DNA from: an uncultured Pelagibacteraceae bacterium
GTDB lineage: Bacteria; Pseudomonadota; Alphaproteobacteria; Pelagibacterales; Pelagibacteraceae
Assembly: GCA_902576335.1 (NCBI GenBank)
Contig: CACGVC010000002.1
Coordinates: forward strand, 1 to 64,000
Reading direction: 5' to 3'
DNA: 64,000 nucleotides
Each line of letters begins with the position of its first letter. Positions within the stretch are counted from its first letter, which is position 1. Of this stretch, positions 13,002 through 27,596 are shown piece by piece. The translations under genes were made by a program, and so were the position numbers. Under the pieces are notes generated by a model, which was not told the DNA's origin, made no database searches, and was given only the letters and a program-made list of their open reading frames with translations.

Positions 13002-13581
13002 GTATTTTTAAGTATTCTTTAATTTTCTTTATTGGTAAACCCATAATTGTGTCCTCATCGCCTTCGATACTTGCAAATAAATATCTACCCTCACTTTCAA
13101 TTTGGTAAACATTATAAGCATAAAGGGCCTCATCAGATATTTTAGATAAATACTGTTTTAATTCTTCTTCGGTAAAATTTTTCATTGTTAATTTAGCTTT
13201 ATCAGTATAGTTCCAAATCATCATCCCATTTTTAGATATACAAACTGAACTTATCAAATGATGATGTTTGCCATTAAGTTCTTTTAGAATTTTTAAAGCG
13301 CTTTCTCTATTCTCAGGTTTCGATATTAGTTTTCCCTCTAAATCTATAACGCTGTCTGCACCTAATACTAATTTATCAGGATGTTTAATGCTAATCTTAT
13401 TTGCTTTTATTTCTGCAAGATTTTTTGAGATAATCTCTGGACTTGCTTTTTCACTTAACAAACTTGACTTAATAATATCTTCATCAACATTAGAAGGTTC
13501 AACAGTATTAGTAATATTGTTCCTGTCCAAAATCTCTTTTCTCACCTTACTCTTGGATGCTAAGATAATTCTTTTATCCAT
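12991..13581 (-). CDS. maf: Maf family nucleotide pyrophosphatase
   Basis: IILASKSKVRKEIL...LVLGADSVI. Confidence 0.93.
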   Translation of the reverse strand: MDKRIILASKSKVRKEILDRNNITNTVEPSNVDEDIIKSSLLSEKASPEIISKNLAEIKANKISIKHPDKLVLGADSVIDLEGKLISKPENRESALKILKELNGKHHHLISSVCISKNGMMIWNYTDKAKLTMKNFTEEELKQYLSKISDEALYAYNVYQIESEGRYLFASIEGDEDTIMGLPIKKIKEYLKIHGH

Positions 13582-14404
13582 TCTTTTTATTTAAAAAAAT
13601 TTCGTAAATTTTTATTACCGATGCAGCAGTTTCTTCAACCGATTTCCTTGTTACATCTATAGTTGGCCATTTATATTTTCTAAAAGTATTTTTTGCATCC
13701 TCAACTTCTTTTTTAATTTTATCTAAGTTGGTATAATCTTGACCTTTTGGATTTTTTAAAGAATTTATTCGATTTTTTCTTATTTCCACTAATCTTTCAG
13801 CTTCAGTCGTTAACCCAATAATACAAAAATTTTGTGGATTTGTTTTTAAATTCCTTGGTATGGAATTCTGATTTATCAAAGGTATGTTTGCTGTTTTATA
13901 GCCTTTGTTTGCCAAATATATCGAAGTAGGTGTTTTGCTAGTTCTGCTGACACCTAATAAAATTATATCGGATTTTTCAATATCAATGAGTAAGTTTCCA
14001 TCGTCATGGTTCATTGTATATTGAATAGCTTCAATCCTATTATAGTACTCTTCATCTAAAACATGTTGACCACTTGGCTCGTGGGATGCTTTTTGATTAA
14101 ATAATTTTGAAAAATTTAATATCAAACTACCTAAAACCCCGAAGCAAGGAATTCTTTTTTTGTTGCACGAGTTAGCTAAATTTTTGGCTAAGTTGTTGTC
14201 TACAATTGTATATAAAATAATAGAATTTTCTTTTTTCTCTGCTATTTCGAGTATTTTGGAAATTTGATTCTCAGTTCGTGTGAAAGAGTAGGAATTAACT
14301 TTATAATCAATGTTTTTGAACTGAGCTTTTAAAGATAAAAAGATTCTATCTAAAGTCTCTCCTGTAGAATCAGAAATTAAGAATATTTGATAAGTATTAC
14401 TCAT
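13574..14404 (-). CDS. ppsR: Pyruvate,phosphate dikinase / PEP synthase regulatory protein (DUF299)
   Basis: FLISDSTGETLDRIF...LLGVSRTSKTPTSIYLANKGYKTANIPL. Confidence 0.93.
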   Translation of the reverse strand: MSNTYQIFLISDSTGETLDRIFLSLKAQFKNIDYKVNSYSFTRTENQISKILEIAEKKENSIILYTIVDNNLAKNLANSCNKKRIPCFGVLGSLILNFSKLFNQKASHEPSGQHVLDEEYYNRIEAIQYTMNHDDGNLLIDIEKSDIILLGVSRTSKTPTSIYLANKGYKTANIPLINQNSIPRNLKTNPQNFCIIGLTTEAERLVEIRKNRINSLKNPKGQDYTNLDKIKKEVEDAKNTFRKYKWPTIDVTRKSVEETAASVIKIYEIFLNKKNG

Positions 14405-14665
14405 GTATATATTGTTAATATCTTTGTAATATCTTAATAAAATTAAACAAATTTATTTTTATTTAAAATAGCTTGTAAAATAAGGGTTTTATCAACATTA
14501 TTTATTTCGTGAAAAACAATTATACAAATGGTTGGGTAATTTATAAGTTACCTATTAATTATTGATAAATTTAAGAATAAATAGTCAATAAAATGTTAAT
14601 AAAAAATAGTTACCATTATTCACACTCCCTAACAATACTACAATCTTATATTATATATTTTAAAT
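14405..14665. other. Putative chromosomal replication origin (oriC)
   Basis: Divergent AT-rich intergenic between ppsR and hemE; DnaA-box-like TTATCAACA (14489-14497) and TTATTCACA (14616-14624), each one mismatch from TTATCCACA; weaker TGTTAATAA (14594-14602) and TATTGATAA (14560-14568); Caulobacter-like origin gene order. Confidence 0.75.
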
Positions 14666-15667
14666 ATGACTCCAATTTATAAAGTTTTAAAAAATAAAAA
14701 TACGACAATAAAACCTATATGGGTTATGAGACAGGCAGGAAGATATTTGCCAGAGTTTAGAGAAATTAGAAATAAAAATCCTGACTTTATAAAGTTATGC
14801 TTAAACGAAAAATTATCAGCAGAAATAACTCTACAACCTTTAAAAAGATTTGATTTAGATGCTGCAATAATTTTTTCAGATATATTAATGCTACCATATG
14901 GATTAAATCAAAAAGTTGAGTTTAAGAAAGGAATTGGACCCGTATTAGGAAATTTAAACTTAGATAGTATTTTAAAATTGAATGAAACTAATTTTGTTGA
15001 GAAACTAAATCCAGTTTATAAGCTTGTTAATTTGATTAATAATAATGCTCTTACAAAAAATAAGAGCACAATAGGTTTTGTTGGTGCTCCGTGGACCCTT
15101 CTAGTATACATGATAAATCAAAAATCACCAAAGACGGGTTTAAAGGATGATTTTTTTAAAGATAAAAAATTAATAAGTAAAACTTTGGAGATCATTGAAA
15201 AGTTTTTAAAAGTGCATATCAAATTTCAAGTTGAAAACGGTGCGCACATTATCCAAATTTTTGATAGTTGGGCCGGATTATTAAATGAAAAAGATTTGCC
15301 AAATTATGTTTATGAACCCACTGTAAACTTGGTTGAGTATACTAAATCTTTAAACATTCCAGTCATATGTTTTCCCAAAGGTATAAAAAGATATAAAGAT
15401 TATTGTGAAACCGTTAAGCCTGATGCCGTCTGTATCGATTATGAAGTTGATCCTAAAGAGATTATAAAAGATGTCCAAATTCCTGTTCAAGGAGGAATGG
15501 ATCCAAAAATTTTGTTGACCGATCGAGAAAATTTAAAAAAAGAAGCAAAAAGATATTTAGATATCTTTAAAGATCACCCTTATATATTCAATTTAGGGCA
15601 TGGAATTTTACCTGAAACAGACCCGGAGATGATGAATTATTTGGTGAAAACGGTAAAAGATTATTAA
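14666..15667 (+). CDS. hemE: Uroporphyrinogen decarboxylase
   Basis: PIWVMRQAGRYLPEFR. Confidence 0.98.
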   Translation: MTPIYKVLKNKNTTIKPIWVMRQAGRYLPEFREIRNKNPDFIKLCLNEKLSAEITLQPLKRFDLDAAIIFSDILMLPYGLNQKVEFKKGIGPVLGNLNLDSILKLNETNFVEKLNPVYKLVNLINNNALTKNKSTIGFVGAPWTLLVYMINQKSPKTGLKDDFFKDKKLISKTLEIIEKFLKVHIKFQVENGAHIIQIFDSWAGLLNEKDLPNYVYEPTVNLVEYTKSLNIPVICFPKGIKRYKDYCETVKPDAVCIDYEVDPKEIIKDVQIPVQGGMDPKILLTDRENLKKEAKRYLDIFKDHPYIFNLGHGILPETDPEMMNYLVKTVKDY

Positions 15668-18435: not shown

Positions 18436-18534
18436 ATCTAGTCTAAATATACAGAGAGTTAAAAAATACAAAAAAAAACTATTTTTATTCAAAAAAAATA
18501 ATAATGTTATCCAATAAATATATAATTGGACATT

Positions 18535-20217
18535 ATGGAGACAAAGAGCACTAATTTTTTAAAATTATTACAAGAAAAAAAATATTCTTTAATTGTTTCA
18601 ATAATTGAAAATGAACTTGAAGAAAAAGATAAAACACCCAGTTTATTAAATCTCTGCGGTGTTGCAAGAATGCTGAGGGGTAAATCATCTGCTACCGAGA
18701 AATCTGCAATACAAGATTTTAAAAATTCATGTTTGAAAGAAACAGTAACAGAAAAATTATTTGATCCACTAAGAAATTTAATAAGTACCTCTGTAATTCA
18801 TTTTGATAATGAATTTAGAGAAAATGAAAATGAATTAAAAAAAAATTTCTTTGACGATATATATTTTTTCTACCAAAAAAACAAAAGTTTTTTTGAAACA
18901 AATAAAGTCTTGATGTACAACTTTTCAAAAGTTATTTTACGTACTTCAGACACAGAAACCATTATTAAACATTATAAAAAAGTTTTTGATTTAAGTTCTA
19001 ACATAGACGCCTTAATAGCATCTATCTTTTTTAGAAATTATATCTTTGGTTGGAGTCAGGAAGAATTTCTTAATAATTCAAAAAAGATTAGTGATTTAGT
19101 TCCTATACACAAAAATGATGGGTTAGAAAAAATTATAAATAACAAAAATGACAAATTAAATATAGCATTCATATCGTCTGACATTAGGGGGAAACATTCT
19201 GTAGTCTATTTTTTGAAAACAGTAATTAATTTTTATGACAAAAAAAAATATAACATTTTCATTTATAACAATAATTTTAAGAAAGATGATACAATTAAAG
19301 AATTTGAAGACAAAGTTTTTAATATACATGAAATAAAAAGTTTAAAAGATATTGAAGTTATTAATAAAATTAGAAAAGATAAGATTGATATTATTATTGA
19401 TCTGAATGGACTAACTTCAGACCATAGATTGACGTTGATTAAAAATCGTGTTGCGCCTATTCAAATATCCTGGTGTGGATATCCAAATACAACTGGGCTT
19501 TCGGGAATGGATTATTTAATTGCTGATAGAAATTTAATTAAACCTGATGAGGAAAAATACTATTCTGAGAAAATTATTTATTTACCTGAAATTTGGAATT
19601 GTCATTATGGCTATGATAGTAAAAGAGAATTTAATTCAGCGCCATCAATTTCAAAAAAATCTATTACATTTGGATCATTTAATAACTTTAGAAAAATAAA
19701 TGACGATGTAATTCAAGTTTGGTCAAAGATATTGAAAAAAGTTAAAAATTCAAAATTAATGTTGAAAACATCATTTCCTATATCAACTGAAAGGTTCAAA
19801 GAAGAATTTGATAAATATGGTGTATTAGAATCTGTAATTATTTTGCCATTTAAAAAAAAATTTTCAAATCATTTAGAAACTTATAAAGACATCGATATAG
19901 CTTTAGATACTTTTCCTTATAATGGAGTTACAACCTCATTTGAAGCAATTTGGATGGGTGTTCCGGTAGTCACAATGAAAGGTCACAATTCAAATTCAAG
20001 ATGTGGTGAATCCATAAATAAAAATGCAAATCTTGTCTCACTAATTGGTAATGATAAAGAAGACTATATAAAAAAAGCTGTTAATTTAGCTCTAAACACA
20101 GAAGAGTTGATTAAGATAAGAAAAAATATTTATGATAACGTTTCAAAGACACCTTTATTTGATAAAAAGAAATTTTCAGATGGATTTTTTTCTAGTTTGG
20201 AAAAATTATATAATTAA
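18535..20217 (+). CDS. GT41-like (O-GlcNAc transferase/SPINDLY C-terminal type) glycosyltransferase, copy 1
   Basis: Helical N-terminal region; C-terminal DIALDTFPYNGVTTSFEAIWMGVPVVTMKG; ATG taken at METKSTNF (ORF track starts at TTG 18526). Confidence 0.85.
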   Translation: METKSTNFLKLLQEKKYSLIVSIIENELEEKDKTPSLLNLCGVARMLRGKSSATEKSAIQDFKNSCLKETVTEKLFDPLRNLISTSVIHFDNEFRENENELKKNFFDDIYFFYQKNKSFFETNKVLMYNFSKVILRTSDTETIIKHYKKVFDLSSNIDALIASIFFRNYIFGWSQEEFLNNSKKISDLVPIHKNDGLEKIINNKNDKLNIAFISSDIRGKHSVVYFLKTVINFYDKKKYNIFIYNNNFKKDDTIKEFEDKVFNIHEIKSLKDIEVINKIRKDKIDIIIDLNGLTSDHRLTLIKNRVAPIQISWCGYPNTTGLSGMDYLIADRNLIKPDEEKYYSEKIIYLPEIWNCHYGYDSKREFNSAPSISKKSITFGSFNNFRKINDDVIQVWSKILKKVKNSKLMLKTSFPISTERFKEEFDKYGVLESVIILPFKKKFSNHLETYKDIDIALDTFPYNGVTTSFEAIWMGVPVVTMKGHNSNSRCGESINKNANLVSLIGNDKEDYIKKAVNLALNTEELIKIRKNIYDNVSKTPLFDKKKFSDGFFSSLEKLYN

Positions 20218-20229
20218 ATAATTTTATCT

Positions 20230-20307
20230 ATGACTATTTATGCTTTATCTACTGGTCCTAGAGTATTGGAAATTGTTATAATAAATTTTTTGGCAATTAG
20301 AGGATGA
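20230..20307 (+). pseudogene. Remnant of the mnmE 5' end (25-codon ORF MTIYALSTGPRVLEIVIINFLAIRG*)
   Basis: First 10 codons encode MTIYALSTGP, identical to MnmE at 22002; 26/30 nt identity with all 4 differences synonymous; stop overlaps the next gene's ATG (ATGA). Confidence 0.85.
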
Positions 20308-21992
20308 ACGAAAAAATCAATTTTCAAAAACTTTTTGAAGAGAAAAAATATACAAAAATCTTATCAATTATACAAAATATTGATAAGAAAAATTTAAATT
20401 CAGGATTAATTAATTTATCTGGGGTGTGCAAACTACTATCTGATAAATCTGAAGTAACTTTAAAAAGTGCAATAATTGATTTTAGAACAGCATATTTAAA
20501 AGATAAAAAAAAAACCGAACATTCTTTTAACGCTTTAAGAAATTTTATAAATGCTTCTATTGATCTTTTTGATATCGAATTCAAATCGAATGAAATAAAT
20601 TTAACAGGCAAGATTCTCGAGGAAATTTTCTTATATTATAATGATAATAAAGATTATTTTGAAAAAAATGATGAGCTTACAAGAGCTTTAGTGAGAGCAT
20701 TAGTCCGTAATGTAGATATAGAAAAGGTTATCTATTACCTTAATCAAATCGCTGAAAAAGAAACCTCCAGTATTGATGCTTTGGCATCATATATTTATTA
20801 TCAAAGTTTTATTTATAACTGGGATCAAAAAAAATTTTTAGAATATTCCAAAATCCTTGATCAAAAATTAATTACTTACCCTCAAAATAAATTAATTGAA
20901 ATTAGTGGTTCAAATAGAAAAAAAATTAATATTGGTTTTCACTCTGCTGATATAAGATCAAAACATTCTGTTACTCATTTTTTAAAAACAGTTTTATGTA
21001 ACTATGATAAGAACAAATTTAATATAAACATTTATACTGGTTGTAAAAAACATCAGGAAGACGAAACCACACAGGAATTTAGAAATTATGTAGATAAGAT
21101 GATTAATATAGTAGATATGGGCGATATTGACGTTATAAATCTTATTAGAAATGACAAAATTGACATTTTAATTGATCTGATGGGGCTTATATCTAACCAT
21201 CGATTGTCTCTTTATAAAAATCGATTAGCCCCAATACAAATAACTTGGTGTGGTTTTCAGAACACAACCGGAATTAAAGAAATGGACTATATAATTGTAG
21301 ATAAAAATTTGATCTATGAAGATGAAAAAAAACTATACTCTGAAAAAATTTTATACATGGAAGATATTTGGAATTGTCATTCTGGTTTTGACATACCAAG
21401 ATTACAGAAATCAGCTCCAATAACTGAAAATAAATTTATAACTTTTGGTTCCTTCAACAATTATAATAAAATAAATGACAGAGTTATATACGTTTGGTCA
21501 AAAATATTGAAACAAGTCAAAAATTCAAGATTAATTTTAAAATCCTCCGGCGCCACTTTTAGAACTGCAATGGCTGAAAAATTTAAGAAAAATGATGTTA
21601 TAAATTCTGTTGAATTTTTGCCTTTTAAAGGAAATTTTGAGGATCACTTAAACCAGTATAATAAAATAGATATTGCATTAGATACTTTTCCCTATAATGG
21701 TGTTACTACATCCTTTGAGGCAATCTGGATGGGTGTTCCTGTACTTACGATGAAAGGATTTAATTATAACTCAAGAAGTGGTGAGTCTATCAATAAAAAT
21801 CTTAACCTACAGGAATTAATTGCTGAAAATGAAAATGATTATATAAATATTGCAGTGAGTTTAGAAAAAAATGTTGAAAATCTTAAAAAGTTACGTGATT
21901 TCGTTTTTGATAATGCTTTGAGTTCTCCTTTGTTTGATCAAAAGAAATTTTCAAACCATTTTTTTAAATCTTTAGAAAAAATATATAATTAA
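20304..21992 (+). CDS. GT41-like glycosyltransferase, copy 2 (paralog of preceding)
   Basis: Full-length similarity to copy 1; DIALDTFPYNGVTTSFEAIWMGVPVLTMKG. Confidence 0.87.
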   Translation: MNEKINFQKLFEEKKYTKILSIIQNIDKKNLNSGLINLSGVCKLLSDKSEVTLKSAIIDFRTAYLKDKKKTEHSFNALRNFINASIDLFDIEFKSNEINLTGKILEEIFLYYNDNKDYFEKNDELTRALVRALVRNVDIEKVIYYLNQIAEKETSSIDALASYIYYQSFIYNWDQKKFLEYSKILDQKLITYPQNKLIEISGSNRKKINIGFHSADIRSKHSVTHFLKTVLCNYDKNKFNINIYTGCKKHQEDETTQEFRNYVDKMINIVDMGDIDVINLIRNDKIDILIDLMGLISNHRLSLYKNRLAPIQITWCGFQNTTGIKEMDYIIVDKNLIYEDEKKLYSEKILYMEDIWNCHSGFDIPRLQKSAPITENKFITFGSFNNYNKINDRVIYVWSKILKQVKNSRLILKSSGATFRTAMAEKFKKNDVINSVEFLPFKGNFEDHLNQYNKIDIALDTFPYNGVTTSFEAIWMGVPVLTMKGFNYNSRSGESINKNLNLQELIAENENDYINIAVSLEKNVENLKKLRDFVFDNALSSPLFDQKKFSNHFFKSLEKIYN

Positions 21993-25316: not shown

Positions 25317-25963
25317 TGGATAACTCAATTTTAAATTTTTATTCAAAAATCCCAATCCCTAAAGTTTCACGTGAAACCTGTTCTGAGCTTGAGAGTTTAA
25401 TTTCAATGATAAAGCAAAAAAACGATCAAATTAACATAATTAGTAAAAAAACAGCTGAAATAAAGGAAATACGGCAAAGACATATAATGGATTCAGCACA
25501 AATAATTGATTTTATTGATTTAAATAGTAATACAATCTGTGATTTAGGGACAGGGGGCGGGATGCCAGGACTTGTTATAGCAATTGTCATGAAAACCATG
25601 AAAAATTCGTTAAAAATAAATCTTTATGAAAAAAGTCATCACAAATGTGTTTTTTTAAGAGATGTTTCAAAAAAATTAAACCTAAATACAGAAATTATTC
25701 AAAAAGATATATTTACACTTAAAAACATTAAAACTGGAACCATAATTTCAAGAGCATTTAAACCTATGCCCATAATTTTGGATCTAGTAAATGAAAATTT
25801 TAGTCAATTCAATAATCTAATCTTATTTATGGGAAAAAGTGGCAGAAAAATTTTAAGTGAGTCCTTAAAAATTTGGGATTTGGATTATAAAGAAAAAAAA
25901 AGCATAACTAGCGCCGACTCATTTATAATCAACATTAAAATGATTAAAAAAAAAAATTTGTGA
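25316..25963 (+). CDS. rsmG: 16S rRNA (guanine-N7) methyltransferase RsmG
   Basis: RHIMDSAQIIDF...CDLGTGGGMPGLVIAI; conserved mnmG-rsmG-parA context. Confidence 0.95.
   Translation: MDNSILNFYSKIPIPKVSRETCSELESLISMIKQKNDQINIISKKTAEIKEIRQRHIMDSAQIIDFIDLNSNTICDLGTGGGMPGLVIAIVMKTMKNSLKINLYEKSHHKCVFLRDVSKKLNLNTEIIQKDIFTLKNIKTGTIISRAFKPMPIILDLVNENFSQFNNLILFMGKSGRKILSESLKIWDLDYKEKKSITSADSFIINIKMIKKKNL
25363..25378. promoter_or_regulatory. parS-like centromere site within rsmG CDS
   Basis: aGTTTCACGTGAAACc: perfect 14-bp palindromic core of TGTTTCACGTGAAACA. Confidence 0.88.
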
Positions 25964-26754
25964 AAATAATTTCAATAATAAATCAAAAGGGTGGAGTTGG
26001 AAAAACAACTACAGTAATTAATTTGGCATCAGCTTTAACTCAACAAAATAAAAAAATTTTAGTTATTGATTTAGATCCTCAAGGAAATGCTACCACTGGG
26101 TTAGGATTATCTAATACTGATCAATCAGATCAAACAATTTATGGAATCTTAAATGGAACAATGTCAATTTCGAATGTTATTAAGAAGACAAAATTTGAAA
26201 ATCTCGATTTGATAACATCCAATGTAGATTTGTCAGGTTTAGAAGTCGAAACAGCTGGTGATAGCGATAGAGCTTTCATTTTAAAGAGCAAATTAACCGC
26301 TTATTTAAACGATTCTAGAGGACTTTATGATTATGTGCTTATTGATTGTCCTCCCTCCTTAAGTTTACTAACAGTAATGGCTCTAGTATCATCAAACTCT
26401 CTTTTAGTTCCCCTTCAAACAGAATTTTTTGCATTAGAGGGACTGACACAACTCATGAAGACGATTGATAGAATAAAGGTAAATCTTAATCCGTCTTTAG
26501 AAATTCAAGGAATACTTTTAACAATGTATGATAGAAGAAATAAGTTGTCTTCTCAGGTAGAACAAGAGGCACGTGATTATTTTAAAGATAAAGTCTATCA
26601 AACAGTGATACCAAGAAATGTCAGATTATCTGAAGCACCTTCTCATGGTGTACCTGTCCTTATATATGATAAAAGTTGTCCAGGTAGTAAATCTTATTAC
26701 AATTTTACTGATGAATTCATAGAACAAGAAAATAAAATGGGGAGTGCCGCATAA
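25960..26754 (+). CDS. parA: Chromosome partitioning ATPase ParA (GTG start)
   Basis: KIISIINQKGGVGKTTTVINLASAL. Confidence 0.97.
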   Translation: MKIISIINQKGGVGKTTTVINLASALTQQNKKILVIDLDPQGNATTGLGLSNTDQSDQTIYGILNGTMSISNVIKKTKFENLDLITSNVDLSGLEVETAGDSDRAFILKSKLTAYLNDSRGLYDYVLIDCPPSLSLLTVMALVSSNSLLVPLQTEFFALEGLTQLMKTIDRIKVNLNPSLEIQGILLTMYDRRNKLSSQVEQEARDYFKDKVYQTVIPRNVRLSEAPSHGVPVLIYDKSCPGSKSYYNFTDEFIEQENKMGSAA

Positions 26755-27596
26755 TGAATTCACAAATAAAAAAAGGTTTAGGTCGAGGTTTATCATCTTT
26801 AATCGGCGAAACTAGAGTAGAGGCAAAAACTAATAAACTTTCATTGAGTGATATCATTCCAAATAAATTTCAACCAAGAAAAGTTTTTGAGGAAGAAAAT
26901 TTACAAGATCTGACTAATTCAATAAAAGAACGAGGTGTGATTCAGCCAATCATTGTAAGAAAATCAAATTCTGATAACTCTAAATACGAGATTATTGCAG
27001 GAGAGAGACGATGGCTTGCGGCAAGAAAGGCTGGTTTGCATGATATCCCAGTAGTAGTTACTGAAGCGGATGATTTGAAATCACTTGAGTTTGCCATAGT
27101 TGAAAATGTGCAAAGACATGATTTAAATCCCTTAGAAGAGGCTCAGGGATATAAAAGATTAATCGACGAATTTTCCTATGATCAAGAAAAAGTTTCCAAA
27201 TTTATCGGTAAAAGCAGAAGTTATATTACTAATTCCTTAAGATTACTGAATCTACCAGCAGATGTTCTTAGCTATCTTGAACTAAGAAAAATCACGCCCG
27301 GTCATGCTAAAATTCTTGTTGGTCTAGATAACGCGAGTTTTATCGCTAGTAAGATTATAGAAAAGAAATTATCCGTAAGACAATCAGAAAATTTTGTAAA
27401 ATTATTTAAAAAATCTAAAAAAATAAATTTATATAAAGATCCAAATATAAAAAATCTTGAAGAAACTATTTCTAATAAAATTGGACTTAACGTATCAATA
27501 AAAAGTAATAAAAGAAATAAAGGCTCAATTACAATTTCATTTCATGACAGTGATCAATTAAATAAACTAATTGATATAATAAAAAATAATTATTAA
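26754..27596 (+). CDS. parB: Chromosome partitioning protein ParB
   Basis: KKGLGRGLSSLIG; GERRWLAARKAG; NPLEEAQGYKRLIDEF. Confidence 0.97.
   Translation: MNSQIKKGLGRGLSSLIGETRVEAKTNKLSLSDIIPNKFQPRKVFEEENLQDLTNSIKERGVIQPIIVRKSNSDNSKYEIIAGERRWLAARKAGLHDIPVVVTEADDLKSLEFAIVENVQRHDLNPLEEAQGYKRLIDEFSYDQEKVSKFIGKSRSYITNSLRLLNLPADVLSYLELRKITPGHAKILVGLDNASFIASKIIEKKLSVRQSENFVKLFKKSKKINLYKDPNIKNLEETISNKIGLNVSIKSNKRNKGSITISFHDSDQLNKLIDIIKNNY

Follow-up and report, generated by a model that had tools for sequence, protein, structure and literature searches.

A very probable hemE-type chromosomal replication origin with a putative DnaA-trio tract in a streamlined marine alphaproteobacterium

The ppsR/hemE junction and its genomic setting

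The DNA analyzed here (hereafter, the window) spans nucleotides 1 to 64,000 of a 141.6-kb contig from an uncultured Pelagibacteraceae bacterium, the assembly of which totals 975 kb and is 77% complete. Between the divergently transcribed genes ppsR and hemE lies an AT-rich gap (Table 1) that raises the question whether the chromosome starts replicating there, as it does in Caulobacter and Rickettsia, whose origins are of the hemE-COG1806 type (PMC1914354), or at dnaA, and by what means an origin in the gap would open. A preliminary description of the window had proposed this gap as the probable oriC, along with the claim that it was the longest divergent intergenic region of the window. The coordinates and sequences in that description are exact, and, judged by eye, the gap is indeed the longest among those separating open reading frames of at least 90 amino acids, with an A+T content of 82.8% as compared to 71.1% across the window. 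The boundary genes, hemE and the COG1806 gene ppsR, are those of the hemE-COG1806 type, and the gap also falls within the length range of 200-1000 bp and the above-genome A+T content that characterize such origins.

The gene names previously given to the flanking blocks, ppsR-maf-aroE-coaE-dnaQ and hemE-hemH-hemJ-rho...parAB, were borne out: the identities of ppsR, hemE, hemH and hemJ were confirmed, as were those of the nearby genes for Maf, an AroE-type shikimate dehydrogenase, CoaE, a DnaQ-type exonuclease, SecB, Rho, MnmE, RsmG, ParA and ParB. Between rho and mnmE, the origin-proximal block additionally contains a pair of tandem paralogues of about 560 amino acids (18526-20217 and 20304-21992) that, by eye only, resemble glycosyltransferases of the O-GlcNAc transferase type. 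Recoding through an in-frame TGA in the ppsR genes of three congeners was considered and rejected because this TGA is the natural stop codon at the protein end.

The adjacency of hemE and ppsR is retained in 69 of the 70 loci examined, the remaining one being interrupted by a contig end. The close relatives used here are single-cell genomes and metagenome-assembled genomes, mostly filed as uncultured Pelagibacteraceae; two congeners, G012 (1,343,202 bp) and G082 (1,437,930 bp), are complete single contigs. Base composition, size and family structure suggest a tentative placement of the genome in the HIMB59/AEGEAN-169 order. The literature on the HIMB59 clade that we found mentions no origin, and no Rfam family matched the gap.

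Table 1. Features of the candidate origin and of the associated segregation locus (window coordinates)
Feature	Coordinates	Strand	Remarks
oriC candidate	14405..14665		261-bp AT-rich ppsR/hemE divergent intergenic region; skew, box cluster, conservation
ppsR (COG1806/DUF299), left boundary gene	13574..14404	-	5' end at 14404
hemE, right boundary gene	14666..15667	+	start at 14666
Conserved weak DnaA box	14413..14421	-	ATATTAACA on - strand; many congeners with TTATTAACA
DnaA box TTATCAACA	14489..14497	+	congeners: TTATTAACA/TTATTCACA
Conserved DnaA box TTATTAACA	14594..14602	-	congeners on + strand: TGTTAATAA/TGTTTATAA
hemE-proximal DnaA box TTATTCACA	14616..14624	+	1 mismatch to TTATCCACA
GC-rich spacer CTCCC, box to trios	14625..14629	+	architecture as in PMC8287927
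Putative DnaA-trios TAA CAA TAC TAC AAT	14630..14644	+	predicted DNA-opening site
A+T run to hemE start codon, C14645 excepted	14645..14665		from sequence; role putative
parS GTTTCACGTGAAAC	25364..25377		within rsmG, just ahead of parAB
parA-parB	25960..27596	+	origin segregation genes

GC skew, dnaA and parS

Because gene strand accounts for most of the raw GC skew in this genus, we used a strand-corrected fit in which the third-codon-position skew of each open reading frame is the sum of a constant and a leading-strand effect, and scanned the positions of origin and terminus. The sample consisted of 893 kb of G012 (66%) and 920 kb of G082 (64%), both complete, unlike the fragmented genome of the window. 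The best origin fell at 1,270 kb in G012 and at 905 kb in G082, with the ppsR/hemE junction at 1,262 and 910 kb, respectively. The fits explained sums of squares of 29.0 and 64.5, respectively, more than any of 60 gene permutations (maxima of 14.8 and 25.6). The signal is weak (slope of 0.03-0.04) and its resolution is some tens of kilobases: origins between about 1,260 and 1,310 kb fit equally well in G012, and the best point in G082, which lies 5 kb from the junction, outperforms the junction itself by 3.6 units. Bootstrapping returned the 900-kb bin of G082 in 246 of 300 replicates. The G012 replicates scattered more widely, 207 of 300 falling into the 1,260-1,300 kb bins. Strand-corrected skew places the origin at or near the ppsR/hemE junction and disfavors dnaA, and both the skew shift typical of hemE-COG1806 origins and the inflection anticipated by the preliminary description are present in the complete congeners. 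Local skew within the window was discarded as a locator: it tracks gene strand and reaches its cumulative minimum at about 50 kb, not at 14.5 kb.

The dnaA gene resides on the same contig as the window, at about 82.2-83.6 kb, and in all three congeneric genomes checked it lies 62-68 kb from the junction, on the hemE side. The previous statement that no dnaA is nearby is correct for the window. The block following hemE, which had been compared in this respect with Caulobacter, was the wrong one for the comparison because in Caulobacter dnaA is located on the ppsR/maf/aroE side.

Chromosomal parS sites are normally found near origins, so that their location provides independent support for oriC. 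The perfect parS core GTTTCACGTGAAAC occurs exactly once per genome in five genomes (the reversed control gives no match), and the site in the window, 10.7 kb from the last DnaA box, has no second perfect copy in the 975 kb that are available for its genome. The distance from parS to the hemE start side is about 7.4 kb in G012, 7.4 kb in G082, 10 kb in G091 and 9 kb in G092. This site had not been part of the preliminary account. A lone perfect copy per genome in these five genomes is few for a chromosomal ParABS system.

These data bear on the possibility that replication starts at dnaA, which occupies about 82-84 kb of the contig, and that the gap is merely a promoter region. Many bacteria do have the origin beside dnaA, and a genome of a related kind has been published with its start rotated to this gene (PMC10734472), but placing the skew origin at dnaA (1,198 kb in G012, 972 kb in G082) lowers the fit by 9.2 and 10.4 units, respectively, the 3.2-kb dnaA loci of the two complete congeners contain no TTATNMACA just upstream of dnaA, and parS, 7-11 kb from hemE, is more than 50 kb from dnaA in three congeneric genomes. 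We therefore regard an origin at dnaA as highly improbable. This has practical consequences: at least one metagenomic growth-rate tool puts dnaA fragments at the origin (PMC7852909), and conventions that equate dnaA with the origin (PMC10734472, PMC7852909) would be about 65 kb off here.

DnaA boxes of the gap

The two 9-mers reported previously, TTATCAACA and TTATTCACA, are present, each one mismatch from TTATCCACA; the perfect TTATCCACA is absent from the intergenic region of the window, and the strict TTATNCACA has a single site there. Near-consensus 9-mers (at most one mismatch) show no excess across the window (25 found, 20.06 +/- 4.29 expected); because this count matches chance, the two 9-mers alone prove nothing, and the significance of the boxes rests on local clustering and conservation. 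TTATYMACA occurs at 0.11-0.12 per kb; with three sites spanning 136 bp in the window, the ppsR/hemE gap is the densest cluster anywhere in the sampled DNA of three genomes. Among 1,211 equally AT-rich 261-bp segments elsewhere, 1,151 contain no box, 60 contain one and none contains more, as against three in the gap; hence the enrichment of DnaA sites over other regions that is expected of a hemE-COG1806 origin.

In the aligned gaps of 30 and then 69 congeners (261-292 bp), the boxes hold their positions and vary as DnaA boxes do, which is the conservation in relatives that the initial proposal called for. The hemE-proximal box is mostly TTATTCACA, in some congeners TTATCAACA or TTATTAACA, and once the perfect TTATCCACA. 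Among the six closest sequences, 31 of the 36 box columns are invariant compared to 115 of the 225 other columns (Fisher p = 5e-5); the congener sequences are related, so these conservation counts are not independent. Two further elements were noticed around the second box: a conserved TGTAAAA about 10 bp ahead of it (14470-14520 and the aligned congener columns), and, after it, a AACATGTT-like palindrome in many congeners, the window form of which, CGTGAAAAA, is possibly a weak reverse DnaA box.

CtrA and IHF sites and the DnaA protein

Two other elements of hemE-COG1806 origins were not found in the intergenic region of the window, namely the CtrA site TTAA-N7-TTAA and, on the strand scanned, the IHF site WATCAN5WTR. 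Across the congener gaps, the CtrA pattern is present in 29 of 69 (14.6 in shuffles) and the IHF pattern, in a rough scan of both strands, in 12 of 69 (26 in shuffles). No CtrA orthologue exceeded the family cut-off in the genome of the window, G012, G082 or G091 (best score of 137 bits against 350); one of the 14 control genomes, presumably Caulobacter, passed. CtrA sites are treated as dispensable, being missing in some Ehrlichia and Wolbachia, and although DnaA and IHF sites are considered primary, every element need not occur in every genome (PMC1914354). DnaA itself is ordinary, with the box-reading motif RDHTT intact. Initiation here probably needs few accessory factors besides DnaA.

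A predicted unwinding module on the hemE side

According to the DnaA-box/DnaA-trio rule, a box is followed, after a spacer of at most 16 bp, by three or more trinucleotides whose middle base is A (PMC8287927). The hemE-proximal box TTATTCACA has one mismatch, where up to two are allowed for basal unwinding, and is followed after a 5-bp spacer by five NAN trios, the middle A of which falls at +7, +10, +13, +16 and +19 from the box end. This tract was not part of the preliminary account. The A+T run beyond it is a probable continuation of the unwinding region. The phasing is conserved: A occupies positions +7/+10/+13/+16 in 91-95% of the first congener set and in 91-100% of the distinct sequences of the second set, whereas at the other offsets from 5 to 18 it averages 39% and 32%, respectively. 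The complete set of four phased A residues occurs in 56 of 66 sequences of the first set and in 48 of 54 of the second (104 of 120 together). By comparison, the sampled genomes have it at 13 of 386 box sites, and three of these 13 are the ppsR/hemE site itself.

A similar layout appears, by eye, on the hemE side of the ppsR/hemE gap in five distant alphaproteobacteria (Kordiimonadaceae and others), for example ATTCACAGGCCCTACTACAACAACTACC, or ATTCACAGG followed by TAC/AAC repeats at the junction; most of these outgroups lack TACAAT. No ppsR was found among the listed members of a sister family within this order; hemE there directly faces maf, and the 271-280-bp gap upstream of hemE ends with CACAGG followed by TAA/TAC/AAC repeats. 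Because the trios persist in this family without ppsR, the module belongs with hemE rather than with ppsR. In the same family (G091, G092, G095 and G097; loci L171-L174, L177, L178, L180 and L181), dnaA lies about 62-67 kb from hemE on the opposite side and points away, as though an inversion across the origin had exchanged the two arms.

Promoters occur in any divergent intergenic region, and the distal part of the trio tract resembles a -10-like TACAAT, so one could imagine that the conserved 9-mers, like the TACAAT tract, serve ppsR and hemE as promoter elements or regulatory sites, with no origin involved. Offsets 15-20 do overlap a possible -10 element of hemE, but offsets 7-13 cannot double in this way, and a promoter would not produce an A every 3 bp at +7, +10 and +13. 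Neither would it survive the loss of ppsR or coincide with the skew switch and the sole parS; the promoter scan revealed no excess (3 against 4.4 expected), and the layout is shared with outgroups that mostly lack TACAAT. A purely regulatory role thus seems even less credible than an origin at dnaA, although origin and promoter functions may overlap in the gap.

More weight attaches to the alternative that oriC is located here but opens as in Escherichia coli, through accessory proteins that act at an AT-rich element, and that the phasing of the trios has no function. Origins of the E. coli type do employ accessory factors together with AT-rich elements, the tract itself is rich in A+T, and its trios vary, being TAA/TAC/CAA rather than TAG. 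Against such a scheme, the trio phase is preserved in about 87% of the congener sequences and in distant alphaproteobacteria, and neither a CtrA site nor, on the strand scanned, an IHF consensus was found in the intergenic region of the window. We consider E. coli-like opening unlikely, and opening of oriC by the box-plus-trio module, as predicted from these sequence patterns, likely.

A model for initiation

Taken together, skew location, the box cluster, its conservation, trio phasing and parS proximity form the basis on which the ppsR/hemE gap is, almost certainly, the chromosomal oriC, of the hemE-COG1806 type, of a streamlined marine alphaproteobacterium. The original proposal is supported, in particular, by the skew in G012 and G082 and by the boxes in 69 congeners. 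For the gap itself, we infer DnaA binding, unwinding, helicase loading and fork direction. DnaA, produced from dnaA about 65 kb away, would bind three or four TTATYMACA boxes, and a filament would grow from the hemE-proximal box onto one strand of the trio tract. The AT-rich DNA just ahead of the hemE start codon would then open and the helicase would load. Two forks would diverge from there, one along the ppsR-maf-aroE-coaE-dnaQ block and the other along the hemE-hemH-hemJ-rho block, and ParAB would segregate the new origins through the nearby parS.

With some reserve, we favor a broader view in which the hemE-side box, the spacer and the TAC/AAC trios constitute an unwinding module of the DnaA-trio kind that is common among the hemE-type origins of alphaproteobacteria. 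In these streamlined marine bacteria, the module would be the core of a CtrA-independent origin and would stay with hemE even after the loss of ppsR. This module is small, sharply defined and testable in vitro, and the location of the gap would fix the origin for a widespread, mostly uncultured marine group at about 65 kb from dnaA.

Comparison with known origins

The hemE-type origin as such is already known; what is new here is the phased DnaA-trio tract after the hemE-side box, and a specialist might not expect the trio module to be shared or the setting to be CtrA-free. As in Caulobacter crescentus Cori and Rickettsia prowazekii (PMC1914354), the boundary genes face apart and the AT-rich intergenic region carries several DnaA boxes near TTATNCACA. 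In contrast to these origins, the intergenic region is 261 bp rather than more than 400 bp long, no TTAA-N7-TTAA and, on the strand scanned, no IHF consensus is found in the window copy, no CtrA orthologue exceeds the cut-off, and dnaA is about 65 kb off, on the hemE side. In Wolbachia, Anaplasma and Ehrlichia, as in the sister family, the origin can remain by hemE after the COG1806 gene is lost or moved (PMC1914354), but the neighbor of hemE is a CBS-domain gene in Wolbachia and maf in the sister family. The similarity to the basal unwinding systems of B. subtilis, H. pylori and other bacteria consists of a box, a 5-bp GC-rich spacer and five NAN trios whose central A is conserved, all within the published limits (PMC8287927). 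The differences are that the trios of this predicted module are TAA/TAC/CAA instead of TAG and that no good second box in tandem is apparent in the window. The comparison suggests that hemE-type origins of alphaproteobacteria share the DnaA-trio mode of opening with the origins of Bacillus and Helicobacter, CtrA and IHF being additions that can be dispensed with.
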